This document shows, piece after piece, positions 8,639 to 27,028 of a DNA stretch of 64,000 nt; positions within the stretch are counted from its first letter, which is position 1, and every line of letters starts with the position of its first letter. The stretch comes from Ereboglobus sp. Lineage in GTDB: Bacteria; Verrucomicrobiota; Verrucomicrobiia; Opitutales; Opitutaceae. The notes beneath the pieces were generated by a model. It had not been told where the DNA came from, made no database searches, and was given only the letters and a program-made list of their open reading frames with translations. The stretch covers positions 248,001-312,000 of the forward strand of contig JARKRC010000056.1 in assembly GCA_029974595.1 (NCBI GenBank). Reading direction: 5' to 3'. A program made the position numbers and the translations under genes.

Positions 8639-11600
8639 ATGAAAACATTCACGCTCCTCCCCGCACTGTTTGCATTATCACTGGCGCTGTTGCACACCCT
8701 TGCGCCTAGTCGCCTCGGAGCCGCGGTCACCACCGTCACCATCACCAGCGACTCCACCGCCACGGCTCGCTACACTGTCGCCGCGAGCAACACACTCATC
8801 TTCGACGTATCCGCCGATACCGTTTACACGATCGACAACCTCGCCGCTGCCGCGAACAGCGCAGTAACCCTTGCTGCGAACTCCGTGTTCAAGATCCAAG
8901 GAGGCGGAACCACCGTGTTTACCTCCAACACGGCCACCATTCGCGGTGCCGCCATCAATGCCGTTGCTACTGGCGTCACGATGGATTTCACCAACGTGAT
9001 CTTTGGGGACAAGGCCAACCTCGATCTCGGCAATGCTGGCATAGGCGGCGGTGCATTTATCATCAATCAAGGCGTCCTCACTCTTACCAACGGCGGTTTT
9101 TATGGCAATAAAGGCACTACTTCGGCGCAAAACGGCGGCGCGTTATATCTCGCCAGCTCCAGATGCACCTTAACCGACGTCGTTTTTGAGGGCAACTCCC
9201 ACACGCTATTGGTCGGCGGGGGGATATTTTTCTCCTCGGGCACGCTTCAACTCATCAATGCCCGTTTTGGTGTCCTTGGCGACGCAACACGCGCCAATAA
9301 AGCCGTCCGAGGTGGCGCCATTTATGCCAACGGTGGAATGCTGGACGTCACGAACGGCGAATTTTACGGCAACATCGCAAGCAGCAGTACTGGCGGAGCA
9401 ATCTATGCTGTCGCGAGCGTCACAGGCTCCCTGACAAATGTTGTTTTTGCGGAAAATAGCGCCGGACAGGATGGCGGCGCGCTGGCGTTGCATTCGACTG
9501 CCGGCATCCCGATCACCAGTGCCACCTTCGGTGTCCTGAACGACCCTTCGCGCGGCAACACAGCCGGCGCAAACGGCGGCGCGATTTATCTTGGCTCCGG
9601 ACAGCTGCTGCTCACCAACGCGGAATTTTATGGCAACCGCTCCGGCACCTCGGGCAACGGCTCCGGCGGCGCGATTTTTAGCGGAGCCACATCCACCTCC
9701 GGCACTCTGAGCAACGTGATATTCAAGCAAAACAGCGCCGCGGGCCAGGGTGGCGCGATTTATTGGGGCGGCGGTGGAATGATAATCGACAACGCCCTTT
9801 TCTCCAGCAACACCGCCACCAACGGTGGCGCAATGTCGGTGAACGGCGCCCAAGCCAGCGTCTCACTCATCAACGCAAACTTCACCGACAACGTCGCGAC
9901 CGGTGCCGGCGGTGCGCTCTCCGTGCGGGCAGGCACCGTCCATTTGACCGCCACCGCCAACACAAACTACACCGGCAACACCGCCGCAAGCGAAGGCGGG
10001 TTCCTCCACATCACCGACGGCGGCGTGGTCGACATCCAAGCAACCGTCGGCTCCACACTAACCATCGGCGGGACCAACAGCACCGAAGACACAATCAGCA
10101 GCGGCACACATACCAACACCGTGATCGGCATCAACACCCTTGGCGCCCACGGCAGCGTCATCTTCAAGTCCGACAACTCTGCATATCGTGGCCGAGTTGA
10201 CGTCAATAGCGGCAGCCTTTTGCTCGGCGGCGCCGATGCGAAGCTCGGCGGCCTCATCTCCGTGAAAAACGGCGGCGTTTTCGGCGGATGGGGAACCGTT
10301 GACGTGAACGACGGCGTGAACCGCCACGTCTCCGTCGCCGATGGCGGCACGCTGCAAATCGGCCTCAATGGCGCCACCGGCGGCGCACAAACACTCACCC
10401 TCACCGGCGCACTCGCGATGGCATCCGGCGCAGCCATCACCGGCGACGGCACTCTCGATGTCTCCGGGCCCTCCTCAGGCCTTGTGCTCGGCACAACGGC
10501 GGCCGACAGGATCACCGCCAACATCGCCGCAGGAAAAACCATGGACGTGCGCGGCGCAATTTCCGGCCCCGGCGGACTCGTAAAGTCCGGCGCAGGCCAC
10601 CTCACCCTGGCCAACCCGCTCACAAGCGTGTCTTCGGTTCTCATCACTGGCGGCACCCTTGTAGGAAACCTCGATTCCGTCGCTGCGGTTGGCATCGCCG
10701 GTGCGTCGGTTTATGACGGCAGCCTCGTGCGCACCGCCGGCCAATCCTTCTCGGCCGTCGTCGGCACGATCACCGGCACGCTCTCGCTCACCCAAGGCGC
10801 CGCGCTCAACTTCGATCTCTCCACCCACGCCGCCGCGCAACTCACCACTGGCGCGCTAAACGCCACCGGTGTGACGACAATCGATTTTACCAACATCAAA
10901 AACGGCGCCTACACCATCATCGCAGCCGACAGCCTCCTGGCCGGCAGCTCCAACTTCACGTACACGGTCAACGGTGCATCGCTTTCCGGACGCAACAGCC
11001 TCGATCTCATCTTCGGTGCAAACGACATCTCCATCTACGTAACCATTCTAAACATGCGCGCAACGTGGACCGCCACGAACGGCGGCGTTTGGGACGCCGT
11101 CACGTCAAACTGGAGCACCGCCAGCGACAACTGTTTCAGCAACGGCGACAGCGTCCGCTTCGGCGCCACCGCATCAGGCACCATCGCCATCATCCCCTCA
11201 GGTGTCACCGCGGGTGATATCGAAGTGGCCACGACCGGCACGCTCATCTTTGCCGGAGGCGCGCTCACCACCGACGCCGACTCCGCCTCGGTGGACGGCG
11301 TCGCCGGACTCGTTTCACTCGGCGGCACCACGACCGATGTCACCACCGGCAAACTCGTCAAAAAAGGGGAGGGCACACTCATCCTCGCCAACGCCTCCGG
11401 CACCTTCACGGGCGGTGTCGAAATCAATCAAGGCATCCTCTCATTCAACAACGCCGCGCAACTCGACACCACCGGCACCGACATCCGCTTCACCGGCGCA
11501 GCCGAACTCCGTGCCGACGCCGACATCACCGGCACCTCCGGCGCGCTCGCCAGCGACATCACCATCGCCAACACAAACGCCACCCTCAACACCCAATGGC

Positions 11601-14425
11601 ACATCGTCAACTACACCGGACGCCTTTCCTCGGAAGGCGCCGCCGCCGCGCTCGTCAAAACAGGCGCCGGTTCGCTCGTGCTGCGCGCTACCGACAACTC
11701 CGCATTTGCCGCTCCGCTCACCGTGGCCGCAGGCAGCCTGTTTCTCGCCGACAGCGCGCAACTCGGCGGTGCGCTCACCGTTTCCGCCGGTGCCACGGCG
11801 GGCGGCGACGGCGCCTTCACCGGCAACGTCACAATCGACAACAGCGCGCTTTTCGTCGGCACGCCGCTTGACGTGCCAGCTCCCGGCTCACTCACCATCG
11901 GCGGTGATCTCACGCTCATCGGCGCCGCACGCGTTGATTTTGGCATCCACGACGGCGGGCTTGCCGACACCCTCAACGTCTCCGGCACCATCACCACCGA
12001 CACAGCCGCCAACGTCGTCGGCCTGTCCTTCGGCGTCATTTCCTCCGGCACCTACATGCTCGGCAATGCCGCCAAACTCGCCGACATCGCCAACCTCGAA
12101 CTCAACGGTGTGCGGGCCGAGCCGGATCTCCGCATGAAAGGCGAACTCGCCGCCGCTGCCGACGGCTCCCTGCTCTTCATCTACGAACTGGACGCCTCGC
12201 GCTACATGGAATGGACTGGCGCCAGCGGTATCGCGCGTTGGGATATCGCGCAAAACAACTGGAGCGGCTACAACGGCGATACCAGCGGCCATCTGAAATT
12301 CCAGGATGGCGACACCGTGCGCTTTGCCACCGCCACCGACACCACGATCGACATCGCGGCCGCCGTCACCGTGTCCGACATGCTTGTGAACAACACCGGC
12401 ACGCTCACGTTCACCGGCAAGTCCATCGACACCGGCACGACGGTGAGCGGCTCAATCGTGCAAAACGCCGCTGGCAAGCTCGTGAAAACCGGCGAAGGCG
12501 CGCTCGTGTTTGCCAACACAGCCAACACCTTCATCGGCGGCGTCGAGCTCAATGCCGGCCTGCTCGCCTTCAGCAACACCGCGCAACTCAACACCGCGGG
12601 CGTCGGCATCCGCTTCACCGGCAGCGGCACGTTGCGCACCTTCGCCTCCATGACGCTCGCCGACACCGTCACGCTCGCGGGCACAGGCACAGGCGCCGTG
12701 GCCGCGTTCGATACTGGCGCGAACACCGTCACGGTTGCTGGCAAGATGGCCGGCACTGGCACCCTCGCCAAATTCGGCGCCGGAACCCTCGTGCTCACCA
12801 ACACCGCCAATGTCGCCACCATTGGCTACCACATCGCCGACGGCGCGCTGCAAACCAACGCCGCAGCCCTGAAAACCTCCCGCGTCACCACCACAGCCGT
12901 CGGCACGCTCATCCTCGACCAAAGTGCGGACATCACCTACACTCTTAACATCTCTGGCGCGGGTGCCTTCGAGAAACACGGCGAAGGCGTTCTCACACTC
13001 ACTGGTTCGCTCGGCAACACCGGCGCGACGCGCATTCTCGGCGGCACGCTCAAGGTTGGTGCGAACAACCGGATCAACGCGGCCTCCGCCCTCACCGTTG
13101 GCCCCGGCGCCACGCTCGACATGCGCGGCACCCGCCAGAGCGTCGCCTCGCTCAACCTCGGCGGCGCCCTCCTCATGTCCGCCACCGTCAACTCCACCGC
13201 CGGCGTCATTCTCGGCTCCGATTATTTCAAGGCATCGCAATCCATCACCGGCAACGGCGCCGTTAACATCGCCGTCACCGAAACAGAAGACACTGGATAC
13301 ACGTTTCTCAACGGCTCGGCCCCTACGTCGGTCGTGCTCCTTGAGTCCGTCGACAACACCGCCAATCTCACCTTCAACGTGACCGGCAGCCCTGCCGACG
13401 CCATTTACGGATGGGACGTCACCAAGGACGGCGGCAACTACATCCTCGGCCAGTCACGCATTGTGCCGGTGATTCCCGCGGTCGCCGGCATCAACGCCGC
13501 CTTTCTCATCAACTCCGAATCCGCATTCGACTCGCTTACGCGCCAAATCGCGGCGCTGCGCCGCAGTGAAGGCGGCTACCGCCCCGGCCAGGACTGGTGG
13601 GTGAACGGCTCCTACCGCCACGACACCATTAATGAAACCCTCTACGCCGGCGCGAATGCCAGCACCCGCGGACTGCAAGCCGGTGTGAACCTCGCCAACA
13701 ATGTCAAACTCCGCGGCAGCAAATCCTCCTCCGCTTCCTCATGGGTGGGCGGCGTCTTCTTTGATTACATGGAATCGACCATGGACATGCGCGACGCCGA
13801 CGCCACCACCACGACGCACGGCGGTGGCCTATACCTGGGCTATAGCCACAACAACGCCTTCCACTTCGACGCCATCGTGCGCGTCATCGCAGGCAACTAC
13901 ATGATCCAAGTCCCCGGAGTCCCCGATCTCAAATTGGGAATCACCGGCGTGGGCGCGTCGGTGAAGATGGGATACACGCTCAAGACCAAGTCCGGCTGGA
14001 TTGTCGAACCGCACGCCCAGTTTGCCTGGAGCACCATGAGCGCGGAAAAACTCACAGACCAAGCCCATCGCACCTTCGAAGTCGGCAACCTCAATTCCTT
14101 CCGTGAACGCATGGGCTTCGAATTCTCGAAACATATTATGTTTGGCAAAAAGACGATGTTCAGCCCCAGCCTGCGCATCGCCTACGATTACGAATTCAAG
14201 GGCACGAACAGCGTAAGCGTTGCCCGCTACTACGCGGCTGACCGCACCAAGCTCCGCGACCGCTATGATTACACCGACGACTTCACCGGCGGATCGCTCG
14301 CTCTCGGCGGCGGCGCGGTGTTGCGCATCGGCAACCATCTCTCCCTCTGGGCCGACGCTTCCGCCAAGCTCGGCGGCAAGCTCGAAGACTACACTATCAA
14401 CCTCGGCGTGGCCTTGCACTGGTAA
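8639..14425 (+). CDS. Giant autotransporter with Chlamydia-Pmp-like passenger repeats
   Basis: A 1928-aa protein with a signal peptide (1 to about 29), a long beta-solenoid passenger and a C-terminal autotransporter barrel (about 1655-1928) ending in an aromatic residue (NLGVALHW). The first ~450 residues repeat GGA(I/L/M) and FxxN motifs (FYGNIASSSTGGAIY, FAENSAGQDGGAL, FKQNSAAGQGGAIY), the hallmark of chlamydial polymorphic membrane proteins. The middle has passenger-associated transport repeats (KLVKKGEGTLILAN, KLVKTGEGALVFAN). A module of about 160 residues starting near 806 (RATWTATNGG) is repeated near 1189 (MEWTGASG), which suggests internal duplication. It probably displays a surface adhesin, a substrate-binding filament or a scaffold for the adjacent glycan locus. 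The gap to the TonB receptor is 40 nt. Confidence 0.9.
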   Translation: MKTFTLLPALFALSLALLHTLAPSRLGAAVTTVTITSDSTATARYTVAASNTLIFDVSADTVYTIDNLAAAANSAVTLAANSVFKIQGGGTTVFTSNTATIRGAAINAVATGVTMDFTNVIFGDKANLDLGNAGIGGGAFIINQGVLTLTNGGFYGNKGTTSAQNGGALYLASSRCTLTDVVFEGNSHTLLVGGGIFFSSGTLQLINARFGVLGDATRANKAVRGGAIYANGGMLDVTNGEFYGNIASSSTGGAIYAVASVTGSLTNVVFAENSAGQDGGALALHSTAGIPITSATFGVLNDPSRGNTAGANGGAIYLGSGQLLLTNAEFYGNRSGTSGNGSGGAIFSGATSTSGTLSNVIFKQNSAAGQGGAIYWGGGGMIIDNALFSSNTATNGGAMSVNGAQASVSLINANFTDNVATGAGGALSVRAGTVHLTATANTNYTGNTAASEGGFLHITDGGVVDIQATVGSTLTIGGTNSTEDTISSGTHTNTVIGINTLGAHGSVIFKSDNSAYRGRVDVNSGSLLLGGADAKLGGLISVKNGGVFGGWGTVDVNDGVNRHVSVADGGTLQIGLNGATGGAQTLTLTGALAMASGAAITGDGTLDVSGPSSGLVLGTTAADRITANIAAGKTMDVRGAISGPGGLVKSGAGHLTLANPLTSVSSVLITGGTLVGNLDSVAAVGIAGASVYDGSLVRTAGQSFSAVVGTITGTLSLTQGAALNFDLSTHAAAQLTTGALNATGVTTIDFTNIKNGAYTIIAADSLLAGSSNFTYTVNGASLSGRNSLDLIFGANDISIYVTILNMRATWTATNGGVWDAVTSNWSTASDNCFSNGDSVRFGATASGTIAIIPSGVTAGDIEVATTGTLIFAGGALTTDADSASVDGVAGLVSLGGTTTDVTTGKLVKKGEGTLILANASGTFTGGVEINQGILSFNNAAQLDTTGTDIRFTGAAELRADADITGTSGALASDITIANTNATLNTQWHIVNYTGRLSSEGAAAALVKTGAGSLVLRATDNSAFAAPLTVAAGSLFLADSAQLGGALTVSAGATAGGDGAFTGNVTIDNSALFVGTPLDVPAPGSLTIGGDLTLIGAARVDFGIHDGGLADTLNVSGTITTDTAANVVGLSFGVISSGTYMLGNAAKLADIANLELNGVRAEPDLRMKGELAAAADGSLLFIYELDASRYMEWTGASGIARWDIAQNNWSGYNGDTSGHLKFQDGDTVRFATATDTTIDIAAAVTVSDMLVNNTGTLTFTGKSIDTGTTVSGSIVQNAAGKLVKTGEGALVFANTANTFIGGVELNAGLLAFSNTAQLNTAGVGIRFTGSGTLRTFASMTLADTVTLAGTGTGAVAAFDTGANTVTVAGKMAGTGTLAKFGAGTLVLTNTANVATIGYHIADGALQTNAAALKTSRVTTTAVGTLILDQSADITYTLNISGAGAFEKHGEGVLTLTGSLGNTGATRILGGTLKVGANNRINAASALTVGPGATLDMRGTRQSVASLNLGGALLMSATVNSTAGVILGSDYFKASQSITGNGAVNIAVTETEDTGYTFLNGSAPTSVVLLESVDNTANLTFNVTGSPADAIYGWDVTKDGGNYILGQSRIVPVIPAVAGINAAFLINSESAFDSLTRQIAALRRSEGGYRPGQDWWVNGSYRHDTINETLYAGANASTRGLQAGVNLANNVKLRGSKSSSASSWVGGVFFDYMESTMDMRDADATTTTHGGGLYLGYSHNNAFHFDAIVRVIAGNYMIQVPGVPDLKLGITGVGASVKMGYTLKTKSGWIVEPHAQFAWSTMSAEKLTDQAHRTFEVGNLNSFRERMGFEFSKHIMFGKKTMFSPSLRIAYDYEFKGTNSVSVARYYAADRTKLRDRYDYTDDFTGGSLALGGGAVLRIGNHLSLWADASAKLGGKLEDYTINLGVALHW

Positions 14426-15904: not shown

Positions 15905-16564
15905 ATGTTCCCACAACCGCTCGCCCAATCCATCCAAACCGCCGGGGTCATCGCCGTGCTCGTCATCGATGATCCTGCCGACGCCGCGCCAGCCGCCGCC
16001 GCTCTTTCCGCCGGCGGCATCAATGCCATCGAGCTGACGCTGCGCACGCCCTCCGCCCTGGAGTCGCTTGCCGCCATCAAAAAGCACGCGCCGCAAATGC
16101 TCATCGGCGCGGGCACCGTGCTCACGCCCGCGCAGCTCATGCAGGCGCGCGATGCCGGCGCGGATTTCGCCGTCGCGCCCGGTTGCAATGCCCGCGTGCT
16201 CGCCGCCGCTGCCGAAGCCGGGGTGCCTTTCGCCCCCGGCATCGCCACGCCCAGCGACATCGAGGTCGCGCTCGAATTCGGATGCCGCCTCCTGAAGTTT
16301 TTCCCCGCCGAGCCCTCCGGCGGGCTCGCCTACCTGAAAAACATGAGCGCGCCCTACGCGCATCTGGGTCTGCGGTATATCCCGCTTGGCGGCATCAACA
16401 ATGACACTGCCGGCGCATGGCTCGCGGATCCGTTGATTGCCGCGCTCGGCGGTTCGTGGATTGCGCCGCGCAATCTTATCCAGGCCCGCGATTGGGCTGC
16501 CATCAAACAACGCGCCGCTGAAGTCGCGACGATCATCCGCGCCACAAGGAAAATTGAGAATTAA
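15905..16564 (+). CDS. eda: 2-keto-3-deoxy-6-phosphogluconate (KDPG) aldolase
   Basis: The ORF track extends to 15713, which overlaps the previous gene. ATG 15905 (MFPQPLAQ) gives 219 aa, the usual family length, and is preferred. It matches the class I aldolase pattern of Eda: ELTLRTP, VGAGTV-like GAGTVLTPAQL, APGCNARVL, FAPGIATPSDIE, then LKFFPAEPSGG with the Schiff-base Lys, and PLGGI and GGSWIA in the phosphate-binding loops. It splits KDPG into pyruvate and glyceraldehyde 3-phosphate in the cytoplasm. The KDG kinase follows after a palindromic spacer, so the two make the lower end of an acid-sugar pathway. Confidence 0.93.
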   Translation: MFPQPLAQSIQTAGVIAVLVIDDPADAAPAAAALSAGGINAIELTLRTPSALESLAAIKKHAPQMLIGAGTVLTPAQLMQARDAGADFAVAPGCNARVLAAAAEAGVPFAPGIATPSDIEVALEFGCRLLKFFPAEPSGGLAYLKNMSAPYAHLGLRYIPLGGINNDTAGAWLADPLIAALGGSWIAPRNLIQARDWAAIKQRAAEVATIIRATRKIEN

Positions 16565-16742: not shown

Positions 16743-17834
16743 ATGAACACCATCGTAACTTTCGGAGAAATCATGGGCCGCCTGTGCCCGCCCGGCTATC
16801 TGCGCTTCATTCAAAGCATGCCCGGCACGCTTGAACTCACCTTTGCGGGAGCCGAGGCAAATGTCGCCGCCTCGCTCGCGATCTTCGGCGCGCCCGCCCG
16901 CTTCGTCACCGCGATTCCCGACAATGTGATCGGCGACGCCTGCGTGCAAAACCTGCGCGGCCTCGGCGTGGACACATCGCGCATACTGCGCACAAAGACC
17001 GGACGCCTCGGCCTCTACTTTGTCGAAAAGGGCGCGAACCAGCGGCCGAGCAATGTTATTTACGACCGCTCCCACAGCGCCATCGCGGAGACGCCCGCCG
17101 GCAAATTCGACTGGCCCGCGATCTTCTCCGGAGCCGGCTGGCTGCATCTCACCGGCATCACGCCCGCGCTCTCGCGCATCGCGTTTGAATCCGCGCTCGC
17201 CGCCGCCCGCGCAGCGAAGGCCGCGGGAATCCCGGTGTCCTGCGACCTCAACTTTCGCAAGAAACTCTGGCAATGGGAACCCGGCACGACCGCCGCCGCG
17301 CTCGCGCGCCGCTGCATGGGCGAACTGCTTCCCTATGTCGATGTGGCAATCGCCAACGAAGAGGACGCGTCCGATGTGCTCGGCATTCACGCCGAGGGCA
17401 ATGACATCGAGGGCGGCAGGCTGGCGATTGAACGCTACCCGCAGGTCGCGCGCGAGATCACGCGCCTGTTTCCCAATATCAAAAAAGTCGCCATCACCCT
17501 GCGTGAAAGCATTTCGGCGACGCACAACAACTGGGGCGCCATGCTCTACGACGCCGGCAGCGACAGCGCCAGTTTTGCGCCGTTGCACGACGACGCCTAT
17601 CGCGCCTACGAAATCCGAAACATCGTGGATCGCGTCGGCGGGGGCGACAGCTTCGCGGCGGGCCTCGTCTTTGCGCTCAACACGCCGGAGCTCGCCGCGC
17701 CGCAGAGCGCGATTGCCTTCGCCGTCGCGGCCTCGTGCCTCGCGCATTCCATCGAGGGCGACTTCAATTTTAGCACCCGCGCCGAGGTCGAGTCGCTCAT
17801 GCGCGGCAGCGCGTCGGGAAGGGTCGTGCGTTGA
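16743..17834 (+). CDS. kdgK: 2-keto-3-deoxygluconate kinase, PfkB family
   Basis: A 363-aa ribokinase/PfkB-fold sugar kinase. It has the N-terminal FGEIMGRLCPPG, a substrate-side motif FAGAEANVAASLAIFG, and the C-terminal PfkB signature DRVGGGDSFAAGLV (about 298-311) with the catalytic Asp and anion-hole glycines. KdgK members phosphorylate KDG to KDPG, the substrate of the aldolase just upstream. At 363 aa it is longer than E. coli KdgK, as many family members are. The neighbourhood supports KDG, but 2-keto-3-deoxygalactonate or a related acid is possible. Confidence 0.88.
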   Translation: MNTIVTFGEIMGRLCPPGYLRFIQSMPGTLELTFAGAEANVAASLAIFGAPARFVTAIPDNVIGDACVQNLRGLGVDTSRILRTKTGRLGLYFVEKGANQRPSNVIYDRSHSAIAETPAGKFDWPAIFSGAGWLHLTGITPALSRIAFESALAAARAAKAAGIPVSCDLNFRKKLWQWEPGTTAAALARRCMGELLPYVDVAIANEEDASDVLGIHAEGNDIEGGRLAIERYPQVAREITRLFPNIKKVAITLRESISATHNNWGAMLYDAGSDSASFAPLHDDAYRAYEIRNIVDRVGGGDSFAAGLVFALNTPELAAPQSAIAFAVAASCLAHSIEGDFNFSTRAEVESLMRGSASGRVVR

Positions 17835-17969: not shown

Positions 17970-19604
17970 ATGATACCGCTGCAAGAAATACAAACCGACG
18001 TGCTGGTGATTGGCGCCGGCATCGCCGGCTTGCGAGCCGGGCTGGCTGCACGGCGCGCCGGCGCGTCGGTGTTGATCGTCTCGAAAGGTCCCGCTGCATC
18101 ACCGGGTGTCATCGGATTCAACGCCCCCGTGGGGCCGGACGATTCGGCGCAGTCGTTTTTTGACGACACTTATAAAGGCGGGTTTGAAATCGCGAATCCT
18201 GGGCTTGTGCGGCTGCTCGTGGAAAACGCGGCGGCGGCGGCGGGTGGCATGGAGGCGCTCGGCGTCCGGTTCGACCGCGCGCCCGGCGGCGCGTTTCATT
18301 TGCAACGGGCGTTGGGCTGCACGCACCCGAGATTGTTGCATCAGGAAAACCGCACCGCTCGCGTCGGCATGGCCGTGCTGGGCCGCGCCCTCGCAAAAGG
18401 CGGCGCAGTCATGCGGCGCGGAGTGGCGGTGTCCGAGCTGCTCATCACGCCAAACGGCCCGGTCTGCGGCGCGATGGCGGTGGATTTGCGCGCGCGGGCA
18501 TTGTTGCTCATCCGCGCCGGGGCTGTCGTCCTCGCGAGCGGCGGCGGAGGAGGCATCTACGCAGGGGGCACTTACCCGGCGAGCCTGACGGGCGACGGTT
18601 ATGCGCTGGCGTTGCGCGCGGGCGCGGAGCTGGCGGACATGGAGTTTGTGCAGTTCGAGCCGTGCCATTGCATTTTTCCGAAACGCATCGGCCTGACCAC
18701 GACCTTGTTTGCCCACGGCGGGCAGTTGCGAAACGCGATGGACGAGCGCTTCGTGCTGAAAAAATATCCCGCGGGCGAAAGCGCGGCGCCAAAGGATGCG
18801 CTCGCGCGGCTGGTGGCCTTGGAAATCAGGGAAGGGCGGGGCACTCCGCACGGCGGCGTGTGGTGCGATCTCACCGACATCCCGGAAAAATTCATCAAGA
18901 AGGAGCACTCCGCTTATTACCGTCTGTTTTTGAAACACGGGATTGACCTGACGAAACAACGTTTCGAAGTCGGCCCGGCGCCGCACACATTCCTCGGCGG
19001 CGTGGCAATCGACACGCGTTGTGAAAGCACGGTGCCGGGGCTGTTTGCCGCGGGGGAAGTGACGGGCGGCATCCACGGCGCAAACCGTGTCGGCGGCAAT
19101 GCGGGCACGGAAATCCATGTGTTCGGCGCGATAGCAGGCGCAAGCGCCGCCGCGCACGCCAAAAAACGCCGGGCGCGCGCGCTGTCCGGCGCAGCGCGGG
19201 CCGCCAAAAAACAGGCCTCGATGCTCTCGGCGGACGCCCGCTCCCGGCATTGGGCGGCGCTCGCAAAAACCATTCGCGAACTGATGACGGACAAGGTCGG
19301 GGTGATCCGCGAGGAATCCGGGCTGCGCGAAGCCGTCACGAAATTGAGACAAATCAGCGACGAGGCCTTGGCGTTCGAGCCGCGATCGTTGGGGGATTTT
19401 TGCGGCCGGATCGAAATCCGCAACATGGCGCTGACCGGCATTTGTGTGGCTGAATCCGCGCTGCGCCGCCAGGAAAGCCGCGGCGTGCATTATCGCATTG
19501 ATTTTCCGGAGCAGGATGACGCGCGCTGGAAAAAAACAATCCGCCTGAGGCAGAAGCCCGGAGGGGCGCAGCTTTCGATGCGCGTGAAAGGAGCGAAGGC
19601 GTGA
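17970..19604 (+). CDS. FAD-dependent oxidoreductase, fumarate reductase/succinate dehydrogenase flavoprotein type
   Basis: A 544-aa protein with an N-terminal FAD Rossmann motif (VIGAGIAGLRAGLAARRAG, about 11-29). The capping and C-terminal FAD regions carry PHTFLGGVAIDTRC, VPGLFAAGEVTGGIHGANRVGGNAGTEI and VFGAIAGASA (about 345-395), the pattern of the SdhA/FrdA/NadB flavoprotein superfamily. No iron-sulfur or membrane subunit is encoded next to it, so it is probably a soluble two-electron dehydrogenase/reductase for a small acid. Its stop overlaps the GTG start of the AllH-like gene by 4 nt (GTGA), so the two are translationally coupled. Substrate unknown. Confidence 0.85.
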   Translation: MIPLQEIQTDVLVIGAGIAGLRAGLAARRAGASVLIVSKGPAASPGVIGFNAPVGPDDSAQSFFDDTYKGGFEIANPGLVRLLVENAAAAAGGMEALGVRFDRAPGGAFHLQRALGCTHPRLLHQENRTARVGMAVLGRALAKGGAVMRRGVAVSELLITPNGPVCGAMAVDLRARALLLIRAGAVVLASGGGGGIYAGGTYPASLTGDGYALALRAGAELADMEFVQFEPCHCIFPKRIGLTTTLFAHGGQLRNAMDERFVLKKYPAGESAAPKDALARLVALEIREGRGTPHGGVWCDLTDIPEKFIKKEHSAYYRLFLKHGIDLTKQRFEVGPAPHTFLGGVAIDTRCESTVPGLFAAGEVTGGIHGANRVGGNAGTEIHVFGAIAGASAAAHAKKRRARALSGAARAAKKQASMLSADARSRHWAALAKTIRELMTDKVGVIREESGLREAVTKLRQISDEALAFEPRSLGDFCGRIEIRNMALTGICVAESALRRQESRGVHYRIDFPEQDDARWKKTIRLRQKPGGAQLSMRVKGAKA

Positions 19605-20524
19605 CAGCGACGAGCGGACTTCATCTCGTCGTCCATGCAGGCGCCATGTCGCGGCTTGCCTCCGCCTCGGTCGCGCGGTCGGGCGCGGGCCGGGTGCACA
19701 GCGTTTTCCGGCGTTGCTTCAACCTGACAACGCCAGCCGGCGACTGGCTCACCGTGGCCATCGCGCCCTTTCCTCAAACGCCGGACGCCGTCATCGTGAA
19801 CGCGCGGGAGTTCGCGTCTTTTCCCTCGCCCCGCGTGGAGCCGGGCATGCAGGTCGTGATTGCGCGGGATGCCATTTGGATTCCTGACGCGGGTTTTGCC
19901 GTCGCGCTCGCGGGAGCGGTTGTTTTCGACACGCGGCGCGAACCGGTGGCGCGCATTCGCGGCGCGGAAGCTGCGGCGCGTGTCGCGCGCAATCTCGCGC
20001 TGGCGCAAGAGATCATCCGTCGCGAAGGGCGTGTGTGCGATGCGCCGGAGTTTTTGCGACGCGCCGAACCCGCCGTGAGCGCGCTGTGCGACGCCATCCG
20101 GTTCAATGACGCCGCCGTCATGCGCGAGCAATGCGCGCGCCTCCTCGGGCTTGGCATCGGGCTGACGCCGTCCGGCGACGATATTTTGTGCGGCATCGCA
20201 GCGGGTTTGTTTCTCGGCGGCGCGGCTGGCGGCGGAAATCATTTCCTGCCCGTGTTGCGGGAGTTGTTGCGCGACGGCGCGCGCACGACCGATGTGAGCG
20301 CCCGCTCGCTCCGCCTCTGCGCGGACGGGGAAATCAACGACATCGTTTGCGAGACGGCGCGGGCGATTCTGCTCGAAGGAGGCGCCGCGGCAAGGCGCGC
20401 GCTATCCGTTTTGCTCGCGCAGGGCGGCACATCGGGAGCCGAGACGGCGCAAGGATTGTGCGCCGGCCTGCAAATCGCGGAGAGACTTTTCGAAAATCCA
20501 AAACGCGTGGGTATTTTATGCTGA
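19601..20524 (+). CDS. DUF2877 / AllH (YlbF)-family protein, carbamoyltransferase-like subunit
   Basis: A 307-aa protein starting at GTG 19601, with a good ribosome-binding site (AAAGGAG) 7-13 nt upstream. The signature is LLGLGIGLTPSGDDILCGIAAGLFLGG (about 180-207), diagnostic of DUF2877. In E. coli the family member YlbF/AllH works with FdrA/AllF and YlbE/AllG, a trio assigned oxamate carbamoyltransferase activity. All three are adjacent here. The stop overlaps the AllF-like start by 7 nt. What the complex acts on in this operon is unknown. Confidence 0.85.
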   Translation: MTATSGLHLVVHAGAMSRLASASVARSGAGRVHSVFRRCFNLTTPAGDWLTVAIAPFPQTPDAVIVNAREFASFPSPRVEPGMQVVIARDAIWIPDAGFAVALAGAVVFDTRREPVARIRGAEAAARVARNLALAQEIIRREGRVCDAPEFLRRAEPAVSALCDAIRFNDAAVMREQCARLLGLGIGLTPSGDDILCGIAAGLFLGGAAGGGNHFLPVLRELLRDGARTTDVSARSLRLCADGEINDIVCETARAILLEGGAAARRALSVLLAQGGTSGAETAQGLCAGLQIAERLFENPKRVGILC

Positions 20525-22089
20525 TTAAATGTATCATCCGAACAAACGAGTATCATGACTCTGTCTTCCTGATGGGCGTCGCCCGTCAGGCCGGACAGAT
20601 TCCGGGGGTGCGGCGCGCAGCGCTTGGCATGGGGACGGCCATGAACAAAGGCCTGCTCAAGGACATGGAGCTGTTCGAGGAGTCCGCGGATGCCGCGAGT
20701 CCGAACGACCTGATAATCGCGCTGCGTGTCGCCGATGAAAACACGCTCGCCGCCGCGCAAGCCGAGGTCGAGCGTCTGCTGAAGGAAAAATACGCCGCGA
20801 AATCGGGCGGAGGCGGCTTTCAATGCGGCGCGCCCGCGCACCGCACCATCGCGGCGGCCTGCGCAAAGGAGCCGGGATTGAACCTGGCCTTGATTTCGCT
20901 GCCGGGCGAATACGCCGTCGCCGAGGCCGCCAAGGCGCTCTCCCAAGGGCTGAATGTTTACATGTTCAGCGACGATATTTCATACGCCGACGAGGTCATG
21001 CTCAAGCAGCTCGCGCGCGAAAAAAATCTGCTGATGATGGGACCAGGTTGCGGCGTCGCGTTTGTGCAGCAAGTCGCCATCGGCCTCGCGAGCAAAGTGA
21101 ACCCCGGAGCGATTGGATTGATCGCGGCGTCCGGCAGCGGCTTGCAGGAAACAATGGTGCAAATCGACCGTCTCGGCGAAGGCGTTTCGCACGCGATCGG
21201 GACCGGCGGACGCGATTTGCGCGACGAGGTCGGCGGGCTTGCGACATTGCAGGCGCTGGATTTGCTCGAAGCTGATGCGCAGACGAAGGTGATCGTGCTG
21301 ATTTCCAAGCCGCCCGGCGCAAAAACCGCCGCCGCCGTGCTGGAGCGCGTGCGCGTTTGCAGGAAGCCGGTTGTTGTCAATTTCATCGGAGGCACCCCGG
21401 AATCCGTCACCGCGGCGGGCGCTCATTTTGCGGCGACATTCGGCGAGACGGCGGAGCGCGCCGTGTGCCTCGCGCGGGGTGAGGCGTTCAAACCGCGCGA
21501 CACGGACGCGGACCTTCGCGAAATCGTGGAGCGCGAGACCGCCGCCCACGCCGCCGGACAGCGTTATTTGCGCGGCATTTTTTGCGGCGGCACGCTGGCG
21601 GAAGAGGCGATGATGGTCATGCGTCCGCTGCTGTCTGAAATCCATTCGAACACGGGGCTTCTGCCCGAGTTCACGCTCAAGGATGTTCGCGTCAGCGAAA
21701 AGCACACCATCATCGACATCGGCACCGAGGATTTCACGCGCGGACGCCCGCACGCGGCGATTGATCCCGCGCCGCGCATCGAGCGTTTTGCCGCCGAGGC
21801 GGCTGACCCTTCGGTGGCCGTCATCCTCCTGGATTTTCTGCTCGGGTATGGCTGCCACGATGATCCCTGCGGCATCATGGCCGGGCCGATCGCCGGGGCC
21901 ATTGCGAATGCGAAAAAGAGCGGCCGCCGGCTGAGCGTGGTCGCGTCGATTTGCGGCACCGAACTGGATCCGCAGCGCGCCTCCGCGCAGCTCCGAAAAC
22001 TGCTCGATGCGGGCGTGATTGTGATGCCCGGAAACGCGCAGGCCGCGCAACTCGCGGGCATGATCGCCGCAGCCGCCCAAGCCGGATGA
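20518..22089 (+). CDS. FdrA/AllF-family protein (acyl-CoA-synthetase-like carbamoyltransferase subunit)
   Basis: The track's 652-aa ORF begins inside the preceding gene. ATG 20518 (MLIKCIIRTNEYHDSVFLMG) gives 523 aa and matches the FdrA N-terminus. The middle has succinyl-CoA-synthetase-alpha-like motifs: MMGPGCGVAF (about 170), GAIGLIAASGSGLQETM and SHAIGTGGRDL. The C-terminal half has CGGTLAEEAM and LLDFLLGYGCHDDPCG. In the E. coli trio FdrA is the large core subunit. It overlaps the previous gene by 7 nt and is 19 nt before the AllG-like gene, so stoichiometric expression is likely. No carbamate kinase gene, the usual partner in allantoin clusters, is nearby. Confidence 0.88.
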   Translation: MLIKCIIRTNEYHDSVFLMGVARQAGQIPGVRRAALGMGTAMNKGLLKDMELFEESADAASPNDLIIALRVADENTLAAAQAEVERLLKEKYAAKSGGGGFQCGAPAHRTIAAACAKEPGLNLALISLPGEYAVAEAAKALSQGLNVYMFSDDISYADEVMLKQLAREKNLLMMGPGCGVAFVQQVAIGLASKVNPGAIGLIAASGSGLQETMVQIDRLGEGVSHAIGTGGRDLRDEVGGLATLQALDLLEADAQTKVIVLISKPPGAKTAAAVLERVRVCRKPVVVNFIGGTPESVTAAGAHFAATFGETAERAVCLARGEAFKPRDTDADLREIVERETAAHAAGQRYLRGIFCGGTLAEEAMMVMRPLLSEIHSNTGLLPEFTLKDVRVSEKHTIIDIGTEDFTRGRPHAAIDPAPRIERFAAEAADPSVAVILLDFLLGYGCHDDPCGIMAGPIAGAIANAKKSGRRLSVVASICGTELDPQRASAQLRKLLDAGVIVMPGNAQAAQLAGMIAAAAQAG

Positions 22090-22108
22090 AAACGAAAGCA
22101 ATTCTGAA

Positions 22109-23548
22109 ATGACCACGAATCCAACCATTCCCCTGACCACGCCGGTAAAGGCGGTGAACATAGGCGCGGAATTGTTTGCCGACGCGCTGAGGACGCAAGG
22201 TGTCGAGGCGATCCAGTTGCAATGGCAGCCGCCGCCAGCCGCACTGGCCGAATTCCAAGGCTCACTCGCAAAAATGCGCGCCGGAAAATCCGCGCAACGC
22301 ATCGCCGCCGCCAACGGGCGCGCCATCGCCGCGTTGAACGCCGCCGATCCCTGGTGGATCGACATGAAGCCGGCCATCGAGGTCGTGCCCGGCTTGAAAA
22401 GGAACATGATCCTGAAATCCGGCCCGCCGCTGCCTTGGGAGAAATCATGTCCCACGCAGCAAAACGGCGTCATCAACGGCATTTTGCATGAGGGACTGGC
22501 GGACACGCCCGAAGCCGCCGTTGAGTTGATTCGCCAGGGCAAGGTCGAGGTCGCGTCGGCCAATGACTATGCGATTGTCGGCCCCGGCGCGGGCATTCTC
22601 ACGCCGTCGATGATCGTGAATGTCGTCGAAGACCGGGCCACCGGCAAACGCGGGTTCTGCGCGCCGTTTGAAGGCCCGAATCAGGGCGGCCTTTGCGGCT
22701 GGGGAACCTACAGCCCGGAAATCCGCCGCTTCCTGCTTGAACTGAACGACACCATCGGCCCGTTGCTCTCGCGCATCCTGCGCGCCGAGGGCGGCATCGC
22801 CGTGCGCCAGATCATCACGCGCGGCGTCGAGATGGGCGACGAAACACACACGCGCCAGGACGCCGAGGGGCTCATTCTCATCAACCGACTTTTGTTCCTG
22901 CTCATGAAACACGAGCCGTCGCCAAGCGCGGCGCGGGATGCCTGCGTCGATTTTTTGGAAAAGACAGAGCGCTTTTTCCATCCCATCGGCATGGCGTCCG
23001 CCATGTCCGTGACGCAGTCGCTGAAGAACATCGAGGATTCCACGATCGTGACAACCCTGTGCGGCAACGGCGTGGAATACGGGATAAAAGTCAGCGCGCT
23101 GGGAGACCAATGGTTCACCGCGCCCTCGCCGCAACTGACGGGGATGTATCTCGCATCGGACGCGAAGGCCGGCGACACGCTGCCTTGGATAGGCGACAGC
23201 TCGGTGCTGGAGGCCGTCGGCTTGGGCGGTTTCGCCGCCGCCGCCTCGCCCGCCGTCGCGCGACTCCTCGGGCGCACTTTCGGCGATGCCGTCGCGCAAT
23301 CGCGCGAACTTGCCGAAATCTGCCTGACGGCAAATCGAAACTTCCTCGTGCCCGCGCTCGATTACAACGGTTCCCCGACCGGCATCGACATTCTGAAAGT
23401 GCTCGAAACGGGCATCCTCCCCGCGATTCACGGCGGAATGATTTCCAAGACGGGGCTGCGCGTGGGCGCCGGCGTGGCGCGCGTGCCGCTGGCCTGCTTC
23501 AGCGGCGCCTTCAAAACGTATCTCAACCAACTGTTCAAAATCCAATGA
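22109..23548 (+). CDS. DUF1116 / AllG (YlbE)-family protein, carbamoyltransferase-like subunit
   Basis: A 479-aa protein of the DUF1116 family: VKAVNIGAELFADALRTQGVEAIQLQWQPP at the start, then NGVINGILHEGLADTPEAA, APFEGPNQGGLCGWGTY, and MASAMSVTQSLKNIEDSTIVTTLCGNG. In E. coli YlbE/AllG is the third component of oxamate carbamoyltransferase. The last bases overlap the SDR start by 4 nt (ATGA), so the complex genes and the sugar-acid enzymes form one transcription unit. The substrate in this organism cannot be read from sequence. Confidence 0.88.
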   Translation: MTTNPTIPLTTPVKAVNIGAELFADALRTQGVEAIQLQWQPPPAALAEFQGSLAKMRAGKSAQRIAAANGRAIAALNAADPWWIDMKPAIEVVPGLKRNMILKSGPPLPWEKSCPTQQNGVINGILHEGLADTPEAAVELIRQGKVEVASANDYAIVGPGAGILTPSMIVNVVEDRATGKRGFCAPFEGPNQGGLCGWGTYSPEIRRFLLELNDTIGPLLSRILRAEGGIAVRQIITRGVEMGDETHTRQDAEGLILINRLLFLLMKHEPSPSAARDACVDFLEKTERFFHPIGMASAMSVTQSLKNIEDSTIVTTLCGNGVEYGIKVSALGDQWFTAPSPQLTGMYLASDAKAGDTLPWIGDSSVLEAVGLGGFAAAASPAVARLLGRTFGDAVAQSRELAEICLTANRNFLVPALDYNGSPTGIDILKVLETGILPAIHGGMISKTGLRVGAGVARVPLACFSGAFKTYLNQLFKIQ

Positions 23549-24375
23549 AACCCATCAAAACAAACGCTTCAAAAACTCCTCGCAAACACGACAGCCTTGA
23601 CGGGCAAGTCGCCGTAATCACCGGCGGCGCGCAAGGCATCGGCGAAGGCATCGTGCTCGCGCTCGCCGCCGCCGGGGCGGACATCGCCTTCACCTACATG
23701 GGGGCCTCGTCGAAGAGCCGCGCAAAAGCGCGCCGCACCGCGGAGGCCGTCCGCCGCATCGGGCGCAAGGTTGTATTCGACATCGTGGACGCGACAAACG
23801 AAGAAGCCACGGAGATCTTCATGACGCGCGTCGTTTCCGAGCTCGGGCGCGTTGACGTGCTTGTCAACAACGTCGGCGGCGCGGGCACCGTGCCGGAGGG
23901 CGGCTTTGCGGCGCTGCCCCTCGATTACTGGCGGCAGCAATTCGACAAGAACTTTTTCAGCGCCGTCATGTATTCGCGGCTCGCGGTTCGCGACATGCTG
24001 CGGCGTCACGGCGGCTCGATCATCAACATCGGCTCCATTCACACCGCGAAGGTTTTTAATACGAAGTTCGTTCCCTACTCGTGCGCGAAGCAGGCGATGA
24101 ACCAGCTCACGCGCGACCTCGCCGTCGAGCTTGCCCCGCACAACATCCGCGTGAACTGCATCGCGCCGGGCCTCATCAAGACCGCGCTCACGAAGTGGCG
24201 TTATGACGCCGCGTGGTGGGCCGACGTCAACAAGCGCATTCCCATGAACCGCCCCGGATCGCCCGCTGAAATCGGGCAGGTCGCGCTTTTCCTTTCAACA
24301 CAAGAGTCGAGCTACCTCACCGGGCAAATCATCTATGTCGATGGCGGCGGCGCCGACGGCGGCTGGAAACTATAA
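23545..24375 (+). CDS. Short-chain dehydrogenase/reductase (SDR)
   Basis: The track's ORF runs back into the previous gene; ATG 23545 gives 276 aa. The NAD(P)-binding motif is TGGAQGIGEG (about 30-39). The NNVGG segment is in place of NNAG. The catalytic Ser sits in INIGSIHTAK and the YxxxK pair in VPYSCAKQAMNQ. C-terminal YLTGQIIYVDGGG is typical of classical SDRs. Next to a lactonase-like hydrolase and a sugar-acid dehydratase, oxidation of an aldose or a hydroxy-acid is the likely reaction. The exact sugar is unknown. It overlaps the AllG-like gene by 4 nt. Confidence 0.88.
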   Translation: MKPIKTNASKTPRKHDSLDGQVAVITGGAQGIGEGIVLALAAAGADIAFTYMGASSKSRAKARRTAEAVRRIGRKVVFDIVDATNEEATEIFMTRVVSELGRVDVLVNNVGGAGTVPEGGFAALPLDYWRQQFDKNFFSAVMYSRLAVRDMLRRHGGSIINIGSIHTAKVFNTKFVPYSCAKQAMNQLTRDLAVELAPHNIRVNCIAPGLIKTALTKWRYDAAWWADVNKRIPMNRPGSPAEIGQVALFLSTQESSYLTGQIIYVDGGGADGGWKL

Positions 24376-24390
24376 TAATTAAAAACGGGA

Positions 24391-25317
24391 ATGGCTTATA
24401 ATATGGAAATAGCCCGGGGCATACATTTGATAAAGTGTCCGTTGGATTCGCTGTGGACGGGCGTCTTCGTGCTCGCGAGGGAAAAACTCGTGATAATAGA
24501 CACGGCGTTCGACTGCTCGATAACGGACTTGGTGTATCCTTATATAAAGAAGCTGGGCCGCGATCCCGCCGATATCGACCTGGTCATAAACACGCATATC
24601 CATGGCGACCACATAGGCGGTAACGCGCGCTTGAAACGGGAGACGCGCGCCCGCTTTGCCGCCCACCGCCTTGCGCGCGAAAGGCTCGCGAATCCCTATT
24701 TCCATTTGAATAAAATCCGCAGCCGTTTCTCTCCGCTCGTTCCATTTCAGGAGATCAAATCGGGCCTGACACCACAGGAAATTGACGTGGATCTGGAGCA
24801 CGGCCAGGAGATCGACCTCGGCGATTCGAAGCTGCGCGTGCTGCACACGCCGGGCCATGCCGCCGAGGGAATCTGCTTGCACGACAGCGCGTCGGGCGTG
24901 CTGTTCACGGGCGACGCCCTGCAAGGGCGCGGCACGATGAGCACCGGCGTCGCGCTCTATTTCGATTACGACGATTACCTCCTTGCATTGAAACGCGCGG
25001 AGGCGGCGCTGGCGCAGGGCGGCGTCGGCATGATCGCCGCCTCGCATCCGTTTGATCCGATTTCCGGCCTCTTGCCGGCAAAGGAATGCGCCGGATATAT
25101 CGAACTCTGCCGGGACACGGTGGCCCGCTACGATCAAATCCTTCGCGAATACATGGCGGAGCATGAAGACACCCCCGACTTGCGCGAAGCCGTCCGGCGG
25201 TTGTTGCAACAGGCGGGAATAACCCGGACCCCGGGAGTTCCCGTGCTCGCATATCATACCGCCGCCGCCCACCTGGGCAAAATCGCCCCGTCAATAAAAT
25301 GGGGGGAACCCCTGTAA
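24391..25317 (+). CDS. Metallo-beta-lactamase-fold hydrolase
   Basis: A 308-aa protein with the dinuclear-metal motif NTHIHGDHIGG (about 69-79), then HTPGHAAEGICLH and LFTGDAL, and a late AASHPFDP His. These residues make a complete metal site, so the enzyme should be active. The fold covers lactonases, glyoxalase II and others. Sitting 15 nt after the SDR and 34 nt before the dehydratase, a sugar-lactonase step is the natural reading, but this is inference from context. No signal peptide, so cytoplasmic. Confidence 0.86.
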   Translation: MAYNMEIARGIHLIKCPLDSLWTGVFVLAREKLVIIDTAFDCSITDLVYPYIKKLGRDPADIDLVINTHIHGDHIGGNARLKRETRARFAAHRLARERLANPYFHLNKIRSRFSPLVPFQEIKSGLTPQEIDVDLEHGQEIDLGDSKLRVLHTPGHAAEGICLHDSASGVLFTGDALQGRGTMSTGVALYFDYDDYLLALKRAEAALAQGGVGMIAASHPFDPISGLLPAKECAGYIELCRDTVARYDQILREYMAEHEDTPDLREAVRRLLQQAGITRTPGVPVLAYHTAAAHLGKIAPSIKWGEPL

Positions 25318-25351
25318 ACCACAGCATTATATAAATTGGATCCGAAAGCAT

Positions 25352-27028
25352 ATGAATACGAAAAACACGAAAAAACTGCGCAGCAAATGGGAATTCGGGG
25401 TCGCCACGGTCAAGCGTGACGGCATTTTATACGGACTTGGTTATACCAAGGACGAGATTGACCGGCCGTATATCGCCGTCGTCAATTCCTGGAATGAATA
25501 TAATCCGGGGCATGTTCACCTGCGCGAAGTCGCCGAGCGCGTGAAACAGGGTATTCGCGAGGCAGGCGGGCTGCCTTTCGAGGTCGTGACCACGGGCTTG
25601 TGCGACGGCCTTGTATTGAAAGACCCGCGTTATATAGAATTGCCCAGCCGCAATCTCATCGCAGACGAGGTCGAGCTGAACATCGAGGCCAATTTGTTCG
25701 ACGGCATGGTGCTGTTGAGCACATGCGATTCGATTGTCCCCGGCCACCTCATGGCCGCCGCGCGCATCGGCATCCCGGCCGTGCTCGTGACGGGCGGCTA
25801 CATGCCCAATTGCATTTTCCGCGGGCGCGACATAGGCGTGACCGAGGTGTCAGACGCCATTGGAAAAGTCATGGAAGGCCGCATGCTGCGCTCCTGTTTC
25901 GACGAAATGGTGGGATGCGGCCACGCGGGGCAGGGCGCGTGCGGCGAGATGACAACCGCGAACAGCATGTGCTGCGCCGCCGAGGCCATGGGCATGACGC
26001 TGCCTGGAAACTCCACCACCGACGCCACCAGCAAGCGCCGCCTCTGGTCCATTGCGCACCAAGCGGGCCATCATATCATGCGCATGGTCAACGAGGGCAT
26101 CACAACGCGGGATCTCATCACCGAAAAATCCATCGAAAATGCCATCATCACGGACTTGGCGATCGGCGGCTCGACCAATCTCCTGCTGCACATCCCCGCC
26201 ATTGCCGCCGAGGCCGGATTGGATCGCGATTGGTGGAAGTTCTTCGATGAAGCCTCGCACCGCGTCCCGCTCCTCACGGGCATTTCGCCGAGCGGACCTT
26301 ATTATTTCAAGGACTTCGACGCGGCCGGCGGCATGCCCGGCTTGCTGCGGAAGTTGCTGCCGCTGATGCACGGGGATATTCCGACGGTGAACGGCAAGAC
26401 GCTTGCGGAAAACGTGTCCAGGGCCGCCGTGTATGACAAGGACGTGATCCGCGACCTGGATAATCCGGTGACCAAGGGCGCAGGCATCGCCGTGCTCTAT
26501 GGCAACATCGCGCCGGAAGGGGCGATTCTCAAAGCCGCGGCGGTCGCGCCCGAGCAGTATCACTTCGAAGGCGTCGCCAAGGTGTTTCACGACGTCGACG
26601 ACGCCGTTGTCGCGTTGCGCAAAAAGAAAATCGTTCCCGGCATGGCGGTCGTCATCCGGTATCTCGGCCCCAAAGGCCGCTTCGGCACGACGGCGTTTGC
26701 CTTCCAGAAGGAACTGGCGGGAATGACCATTGCCAAGCAGGTCGCGATTATAACCGACGGACGTTTCTCCGGCGGCACATCCGGCCTGAGCATCGGATAC
26801 GTCGCGCCCGAGGCCGCGATCGGCGGGCCGCTGAACGCAGTGCAGGATGGCGACCGGGTCATCATAGACATAGACAAACGCGCCATAAACATCGACGTGA
26901 GCGACGAGGAAATAAAACGCAGGCAGGCCGCCGTGACTTGGAAATTCGATGAAACCAAATACAGCCGTTTCCTGCGCCTTTTCACCCGCAACGTCACCTC
27001 CACCGCCAAGGGCGCCACTTGGATTTGA
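25352..27028 (+). CDS. IlvD/Edd-family dehydratase, probably a sugar-acid dehydratase
   Basis: A 558-aa protein of the Fe-S dehydratase family. Cluster and metal ligands are visible in TCDSIVPGHLMAA and GCGHAGQGACGEMTTANSM, and the C-terminal ITDGRFSGGTSGLSIGYVAPEA is the classic family motif. IlvD makes branched-chain 2-keto acids, while relatives dehydrate gluconate, arabinonate, xylonate or galactonate to 2-keto-3-deoxy acids. The linked KDG kinase and KDPG aldolase favour the sugar-acid role here. A true IlvD role is possible because ilvBN lie 11 kb away on the other strand, but the operon context argues against it. It is the last gene of the operon. Confidence 0.88.
   Translation: MNTKNTKKLRSKWEFGVATVKRDGILYGLGYTKDEIDRPYIAVVNSWNEYNPGHVHLREVAERVKQGIREAGGLPFEVVTTGLCDGLVLKDPRYIELPSRNLIADEVELNIEANLFDGMVLLSTCDSIVPGHLMAAARIGIPAVLVTGGYMPNCIFRGRDIGVTEVSDAIGKVMEGRMLRSCFDEMVGCGHAGQGACGEMTTANSMCCAAEAMGMTLPGNSTTDATSKRRLWSIAHQAGHHIMRMVNEGITTRDLITEKSIENAIITDLAIGGSTNLLLHIPAIAAEAGLDRDWWKFFDEASHRVPLLTGISPSGPYYFKDFDAAGGMPGLLRKLLPLMHGDIPTVNGKTLAENVSRAAVYDKDVIRDLDNPVTKGAGIAVLYGNIAPEGAILKAAAVAPEQYHFEGVAKVFHDVDDAVVALRKKKIVPGMAVVIRYLGPKGRFGTTAFAFQKELAGMTIAKQVAIITDGRFSGGTSGLSIGYVAPEAAIGGPLNAVQDGDRVIIDIDKRAINIDVSDEEIKRRQAAVTWKFDETKYSRFLRLFTRNVTSTAKGATWI

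Follow-up and report, generated by a model that had tools for sequence, protein, structure and literature searches.

The 64,000-nt window analysed here (Ereboglobus sp., contig JARKRC010000056.1, positions 248,001 to 312,000) contains seven genes arranged head to tail at positions 17970-27028, which encode an SdhA/FrdA-type flavoprotein (Fp), the subunits AllH, FdrA and AllG (the trio), a short-chain dehydrogenase/reductase (SDR), a metallo-β-lactamase (MBL)-fold hydrolase and an IlvD/Edd-family dehydratase. We propose, with about even confidence, that they form a phosphate-driven sugar-acid cleavage operon that would conserve energy at the step of C-C bond cleavage. The gene cluster and its residue signatures are firmly established and, together with the co-occurrence of the genes across genomes, are the observations from which we infer each of the reactions and the sugar. 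No gap in the cluster exceeds 34 nt. Fp and AllH overlap by 4 nt, AllH and FdrA overlap by 7 nt and AllG and SDR meet at an ATGA motif; the remaining junctions measure 19 nt (FdrA-AllG), 15 nt (SDR-MBL) and 34 nt (MBL-IlvD). Pfam searches confirmed every gene named in a first-pass annotation of this DNA, in this tight order. A gap of 135 nt separates Fp from the PfkB kinase gene upstream, so that this gene and the aldolase gene may form a separate transcription unit; a promoter and terminator scan yielded nothing informative.

A search of 85,000 species genomes with an AllG alignment yielded 80 loci (numbered here with the prefix L), mostly from gut and rumen Clostridia, plus Lentisphaeria, Opitutales and one planctomycete, in at least three phyla. 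Neighbourhoods were read from our own open reading frame (ORF) calls on metagenome-assembled contigs, where absences may be assembly gaps, and the family counts are not independent events because related sequences share ancestry. With this reservation, the 80 loci held AllG in 77, FdrA in 65, Fp in 63, IlvD in 55, SDR in 53, a linked acetate-kinase homologue (AckL) in 47 and the MBL protein in 46, as well as KDPG aldolase in 37, KDG kinase in 32 and AllH in 30. The first-pass annotation had suggested checking whether the cluster is conserved next to SDR, MBL and IlvD; dozens of genomes show the same gene order, which is thus not due to chance. The nearest relatives of the window cluster are from Lentisphaeria (L053 and L054; 64-65% identity for AllG and 74-75% for IlvD). 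Oligosphaera ethanolica DSM 24202 is a carrier that has been cultured. No AllG was found among the same-genus and same-family relatives listed, which indicates a sporadic presence in the window genome, and its single AllG copy was probably acquired by transfer. We found no prior description of the cluster in the literature searched on DUF1116, on FdrA with rhamnonate or acylpyruvate, or on lactyl phosphate.

The E. coli AllFGH complex is an oxamate carbamoyltransferase that interconverts oxalurate with carbamoyl phosphate and oxamate (PMC11326118), and this homology would favour a carbamoyl reaction, with either a carbohydrate acid, as the first-pass annotation had allowed, or a cryptic ureide as substrate. 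That annotation had noted the absence of a carbamate kinase and of allantoin genes in the window and had proposed looking for them elsewhere. In the window genome, which is 96.4% complete, genome-wide model searches for carbamate kinase reached 18.9 bits at best against a cut-off of 358, and those for allantoinase reached 231.7 bits against 357.9, the top protein resembling dihydroorotase by sequence. The absence therefore holds across the genome, and a ureide role was rejected. Likewise, a homologue of AllK or YahI, the carbamate kinases of E. coli, was found in none of the 80 loci; allantoin-pathway-like genes in them were distant AllD and AllC paralogues only, in a few loci, and the trio with this type of AllG was not seen to be conserved with allantoin genes in relatives lacking the SDR/MBL/IlvD set. 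SDR, MBL and IlvD, by contrast, travel with the trio, in agreement with its earlier assignment to sugar-acid rather than ureide catabolism.

The AllG sequences argue in the same direction. M160, K194, R197, N250, R319 and D360 are present in 16/16 E. coli-type sequences, and other residues occupy these positions in 72-77 of the 77 cluster-type sequences (M160G, K194G, R197G, N250Q, R319G and D360W, fixed or nearly fixed). The AllG of the window has G160, G194, G197, Q250, G319 and W360. Since the cluster type lacks K194, R197, R319 and D360, and since the linked kinase is of the acetate-kinase type with a lactyl-phosphate-kinase signature, we give carbamoyl chemistry very little credence; of the "different acyl or carbamoyl chemistry" put forward earlier, the acyl part is favoured, pointing to a 2-hydroxyacyl group, and the carbamoyl part is not supported. 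A structural model of AllG (pLDDT 81.5) matched only 3clq, a protein of unknown function, so the fold gives no clue to the mechanism. We also considered FdrA-less AllG as a separate subfamily and rejected this, as no residue differs in a fixed manner between it and FdrA-linked AllG. Two further loci hold AllG that is not of the cluster type. At L052:5583-10981, an E. coli-type AllH-FdrA-AllG set follows a thiolase-like protein and a 113-aa ORF, not ureide genes; at L050:7930-14366, AllG of the other type adjoins a duplicated cyclase-like protein and, judged by sequence, proteins that resemble a uracil/xanthine permease, methylmalonyl-CoA mutase and the GTPase MeaB (the cyclase-like identity was likewise judged by sequence).

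The kinase adjoining FdrA-AllG is an acetate-kinase homologue (PF00871) that departs from the canonical acetate kinase residues R91, D148 and N211, having K, E and G instead (numbering of the Methanosarcina enzyme). R91K, D148E and a changed residue L122 (mostly A) occur in 48/48 aligned AckL copies, and N211G in all 47 copies that reach this position, one copy being truncated. Among the acetate-kinase homologues in genomes of the window's family, those without microcompartment neighbours (n=14) have retained R91 and D148, and position 211 is N in 12 of them and S in the other two, whereas those beside PduL and/or an acylating aldehyde dehydrogenase (n=16) have K91, A122 and G211, with E148 in 15/16. 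In the tree, the microcompartment kinases branch from inside the group of cluster kinases (61-member clade, support 1.0), and lactyl-CoA and lactyl-phosphate have been proposed as intermediates of this PduL/kinase system (PMC4784909, PMC8857213). The sole acetate-kinase homologue of the window genome carries the full K91-A122-E148-G211 signature and adjoins PduL together with genes for an acylating aldehyde dehydrogenase and a class II aldolase (L174, C70:24000-40000; neighbour identities read from the sequence alone). The cluster kinase is probably of the hydroxyacyl-phosphate type.

If FdrA makes a hydroxyacyl phosphate, FdrA-bearing genomes without a linked kinase should hold a signature kinase elsewhere, and genomes with AllG only would have no need of one. 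A signature kinase was present elsewhere in 13/14 such FdrA genomes, whereas the signature kinase was found in 0/7 genomes that have AllG only (FdrA, 0/7); two of the seven canonical kinase copies in the latter are partial. For this difference, Fisher p=7e-5 (not corrected for relatedness); the genome of locus L122, which carries FdrA elsewhere, was left out of the test. Linkage of FdrA and AckL in long loci gave counts of 45, 15, 0 and 8 (p=7e-5). Among 147 genomes searched in one clostridial order, the signature kinase was present in 4/4 genomes with cluster-type AllG (one read by eye), and the 26 genomes that ranked next in kinase score all had canonical kinases, including two with E. coli-type AllG. 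The residue signature and the whole-genome co-occurrence ruled out a housekeeping acetate kinase as the partner. We consider it somewhat more likely than not that the trio produces a hydroxyacyl phosphate.

The operon of L084 (Erysipelotrichaceae) gives a clue to the product: MBL-SDR-Fp-IlvD-FdrA-AllG-aldolase-kinase-AckL-AllH is followed by genes for a nickel lactate racemase (604.7 bits, cut-off 460), EtfB, EtfA and a GlcD-type dehydrogenase (L084:15124-19774), the last three making up an Etf-type glycolate/lactate dehydrogenase. EtfB-EtfA-GlcD also lies downstream of AckL in L100 and nearby in L068. These neighbours suggest that lactate, or another 2-hydroxy acid like it, is a product.

The same kinase evidence would also fit a phosphotransacylase-like step catalysed by the trio, in which an aldolase splits the 2-keto-3-deoxy acid into pyruvate and an aldehyde, the aldehyde is converted into a hydroxyacyl thioester, and FdrA and AllG transfer its acyl group to phosphate, which again supplies the signature kinase. 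KDPG or DapA-family aldolases are frequent in the cluster, FdrA resembles succinyl-CoA synthetase and has CoA-ligase-like domains, and PduL fills this job in the microcompartment pathway (PMC4784909). However, no CoA-acylating aldehyde dehydrogenase is conserved among the recurrent neighbours, the conserved flavoprotein is left without a role, and the substrates used in the assay of E. coli AllFGH were carbamoyl phosphate and oxamate. We therefore regard this alternative as unlikely.

The flavoprotein has the FAD_binding_2 and Succ_DH_flav_C domains and shares its fold family, FAD domain, R390 and H355 with SdhA, FrdA and NadB. It differs from these in that the catalytic Arg287 and the second-carboxylate His232 are replaced (R287K, H232E), E245 is lost, the covalent-FAD histidine is missing and no gene for an iron-sulphur partner is found in the operon. 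H232E, R287K and the gap at E245, with H355 and R390 kept, occur in 63/63 aligned cluster Fps, including that of the window; R248F is a further change relative to E. coli FrdA (positions follow E. coli FrdA, the reference being taken in part from the alignment). Fp has thus retained one of the two carboxylate-binding sides while the other differs, which is what a sugar acid with a single carboxylate would require. We propose that Fp is a 2-keto-3-deoxyaldonate C3-C4 dehydrogenase; a known side reaction of succinate dehydrogenase, from malate to enol-oxaloacetate, is a precedent with the same chemistry (PMC10825186).

The gene content of variant loci bears on the order of the steps. IlvD is present in 50/51 loci with SDR, and SDR tracks both IlvD and MBL. 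In L065, L067 and L076, Fp, FdrA, AllG and AckL occur with a UxaA-type (altronate-dehydratase-type) dehydratase and with neither SDR nor MBL; Fp is kept in 3/4 UxaA loci, all of which lack SDR and MBL. A TRAP acid transporter occurs in four loci that are likewise devoid of SDR and MBL, and two of these still have Fp. Hence SDR and MBL look like upstream enzymes (aldose to aldonate), and Fp seems to act after dehydration, in keeping with the earlier placement of the flavoprotein in the same pathway as the trio. Alternatively, Fp might oxidize the aldonate itself, for example at C3, with AllG cleaving the β-keto acid hydrolytically or phosphorolytically and with IlvD and the Entner-Doudoroff enzymes forming a parallel branch. 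The Fp residues indicate only a monocarboxylate substrate, and KDG kinase and KDPG aldolase are frequently present; but a dehydratase forming a 2-keto-3-deoxy acid recurs even when its family changes (IlvD or UxaA), which makes aldonate oxidation distinctly unlikely. It is still harder to regard the trio as an accessory complex, regulatory or detoxifying, of an ordinary Entner-Doudoroff-type pathway. SDR, MBL, IlvD, KDG kinase and KDPG aldolase would suffice for a complete semi-phosphorylative pathway; however, loci that lack SDR, MBL or IlvD (L065, L067, L076, L106 and L115) still hold Fp, FdrA, AllG and the kinase, which are therefore core, and we consider an accessory role highly improbable.

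In the proposed phosphate-driven pathway, which would be non-phosphorylative, SDR would oxidize an aldose to a lactone as an aldose 1-dehydrogenase (or, alternatively, act as a KDX 4-dehydrogenase), and the MBL protein, a putative aldonolactonase, would open the lactone. IlvD would dehydrate the aldonate to 2-keto-3-deoxyaldonate, from which Fp would take a hydride at C4 and a proton at C3 to give the enol of 2,4-diketo-3-deoxyaldonate (R-CO-CH2-CO-COO-). AllG, the candidate acylpyruvate-cleaving subunit, would act with FdrA and AllH to phosphorolyse this compound to pyruvate and a hydroxyacyl phosphate, FdrA handing the acyl group to phosphate. The lactyl-phosphate-type acetate-kinase homologue would then form ATP, with lactate, glycolate or glycerate as the other product; the window genome would rely for this step on its microcompartment kinase, which is encoded on a different contig. 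Clusters without FdrA and the signature kinase would perform the same cleavage hydrolytically, with no ATP formed. Phosphorolysis is proposed because the 2,4-diketo substrate is isosteric with oxalurate (H2N-CO-NH-CO-COO-), the two urea nitrogens being replaced by carbon. Formation of the hydroxyacyl phosphate through cleavage of a 2,4-diketo acid has, in our view, nearly an even chance; more tentatively, the FdrA-AllG-AllH paralogues may be acylpyruvate phosphorylases, with the AllG-only version catalysing the same reaction with water. To our knowledge, an acylpyruvate phosphorylase would be the first enzyme to cleave a β-diketone C-C bond directly with phosphate.

Several points weigh against this pathway. 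KDG kinase and KDPG aldolase, present in many clusters, would compete for the same intermediate and fit the model only as a parallel branch. SDR could be a 4-dehydrogenase, which would leave Fp unexplained, and the model lacks an electron acceptor for Fp. Assignment of the kinase signature to 2-hydroxyacyl phosphate draws on genome context and on proposed pathways. Many loci with FdrA have no AllH. MBL and AllG are fused in a single ORF at L047:8213-10543 and L048:788-3634 and are adjacent overlapping frames in L049, with no FdrA near either the fusions or the L049 pair, which suggests that the two act together and that the role of MBL is closer than that of a lactonase. Finally, the cluster neighbours did not single out a sugar: GH43-type proteins, aldose epimerase, ROK regulators, and ABC and TRAP transporters all occur.

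If the proposal is true, acyl phosphate and ATP would be obtained from sugar acids without CoA, adding substrate-level ATP to sugar-acid fermentation, and the AllFGH family would have a second, carbon-based chemistry. It would explain why some ten genes recur as a cluster in uncultured anaerobes of the gut and rumen, and the residue signature would predict which acetate-kinase homologues handle hydroxyacyl phosphates.

Table 1. Genes of the cluster and the two genes upstream, in window coordinates
Feature	Position	Strand	Evidence
KDPG/KHG aldolase (Eda family), possible separate Entner-Doudoroff branch	15905..16564	+	Pfam PF01081 4.3e-60; ATG at 15905
PfkB sugar kinase, KDG-kinase-like	16743..17834	+	Pfam PF00294 2.5e-27
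Fp, SdhA/FrdA-type flavoprotein, distinct subfamily	17970..19604	+	FAD_binding_2 E=2.7e-56, Succ_DH_flav_C 2.2e-19
AllH-like subunit (DUF2877), GTG start	19601..20524	+	Pfam PF11392 6.9e-18
FdrA/AllF-like subunit	20518..22089	+	Ligase_CoA 1.1e-33; NCBIfam NF004760 447.7 bits, cut-off 433; PDB 3dmy (FdrA) 1.1e-72
AllG-like subunit (DUF1116)	22109..23548	+	Pfam PF06545 1.8e-58
SDR dehydrogenase	23545..24375	+	Pfam PF13561 1.9e-57
MBL-fold hydrolase	24391..25317	+	Pfam PF00753 1.1e-28
IlvD/Edd-family sugar-acid dehydratase	25352..27028	+	Pfam PF00920 1.6e-106

The PfkB protein also scored 454.8 bits against the kinase half of an NCBIfam aldolase/kinase fusion family, below the whole-protein cut-off. 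Upstream of the operon, the window encodes a GH43-type protein (97-1971), a 747-aa protein that matches GH76 weakly (3262-5505), a TonB-dependent receptor (5569-8598) and, following the receptor, a 1928-aa autotransporter-like protein (8639-14425). Relatives of the 747-aa protein recur near the cluster in L047, L048, L062, L072, L103, L107, L120, L123, L126 and L128; it is possibly an unclassified glycan enzyme tied to the sugar-acid pathway. At L042:6447-8213, a SIS-domain protein matching the N-terminal domain of glucokinase regulatory protein lies beside the AllG cluster and neighbours a fucosidase-like protein.

Among known systems, the non-phosphorylative Route III of pentose and deoxyhexose catabolism (PMC6336799) shares with the proposed pathway a dehydratase leading to a 2-keto-3-deoxy acid, as well as the putative oxidation to a 2,4-diketo acid and its cleavage to pyruvate and glycolate or lactate. 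Route III uses an NAD-dependent SDR at C4 and an FAH-family hydrolase, whereas our proposal assigns the oxidation to a flavoprotein and the cleavage to a phosphorolytic trio; a search with E. coli YcgM (FAH family), a single query that could miss a distant FAH member, found no relative in the 80 loci or the window. The E. coli AllFGH-AllK system has the same three families encoded by adjacent genes and an acyl-phosphate product passed to a dedicated kinase. The present cluster differs from it in the six AllG replacements described above and in FdrA D404E, in having an acetate-kinase-type partner and no carbamate kinase or ureide genes, and in being embedded among sugar-acid genes. The second E. 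coli copy of the trio, yahEFG-yahI, lies beside a carbamate-kinase-like gene; it groups with E. coli AllG by its subfamily residues, and its carbamate-kinase-type partner and adjoining amidohydrolase set it apart from the cluster. The fucose-rhamnose microcompartment of planctomycetes and verrucomicrobia shares the K91-A122-E148-G211 kinase signature and a proposed lactyl-phosphate substrate; there, however, the acyl phosphate comes from an aldehyde via acyl-CoA and PduL, not from FdrA-AllG-AllH.

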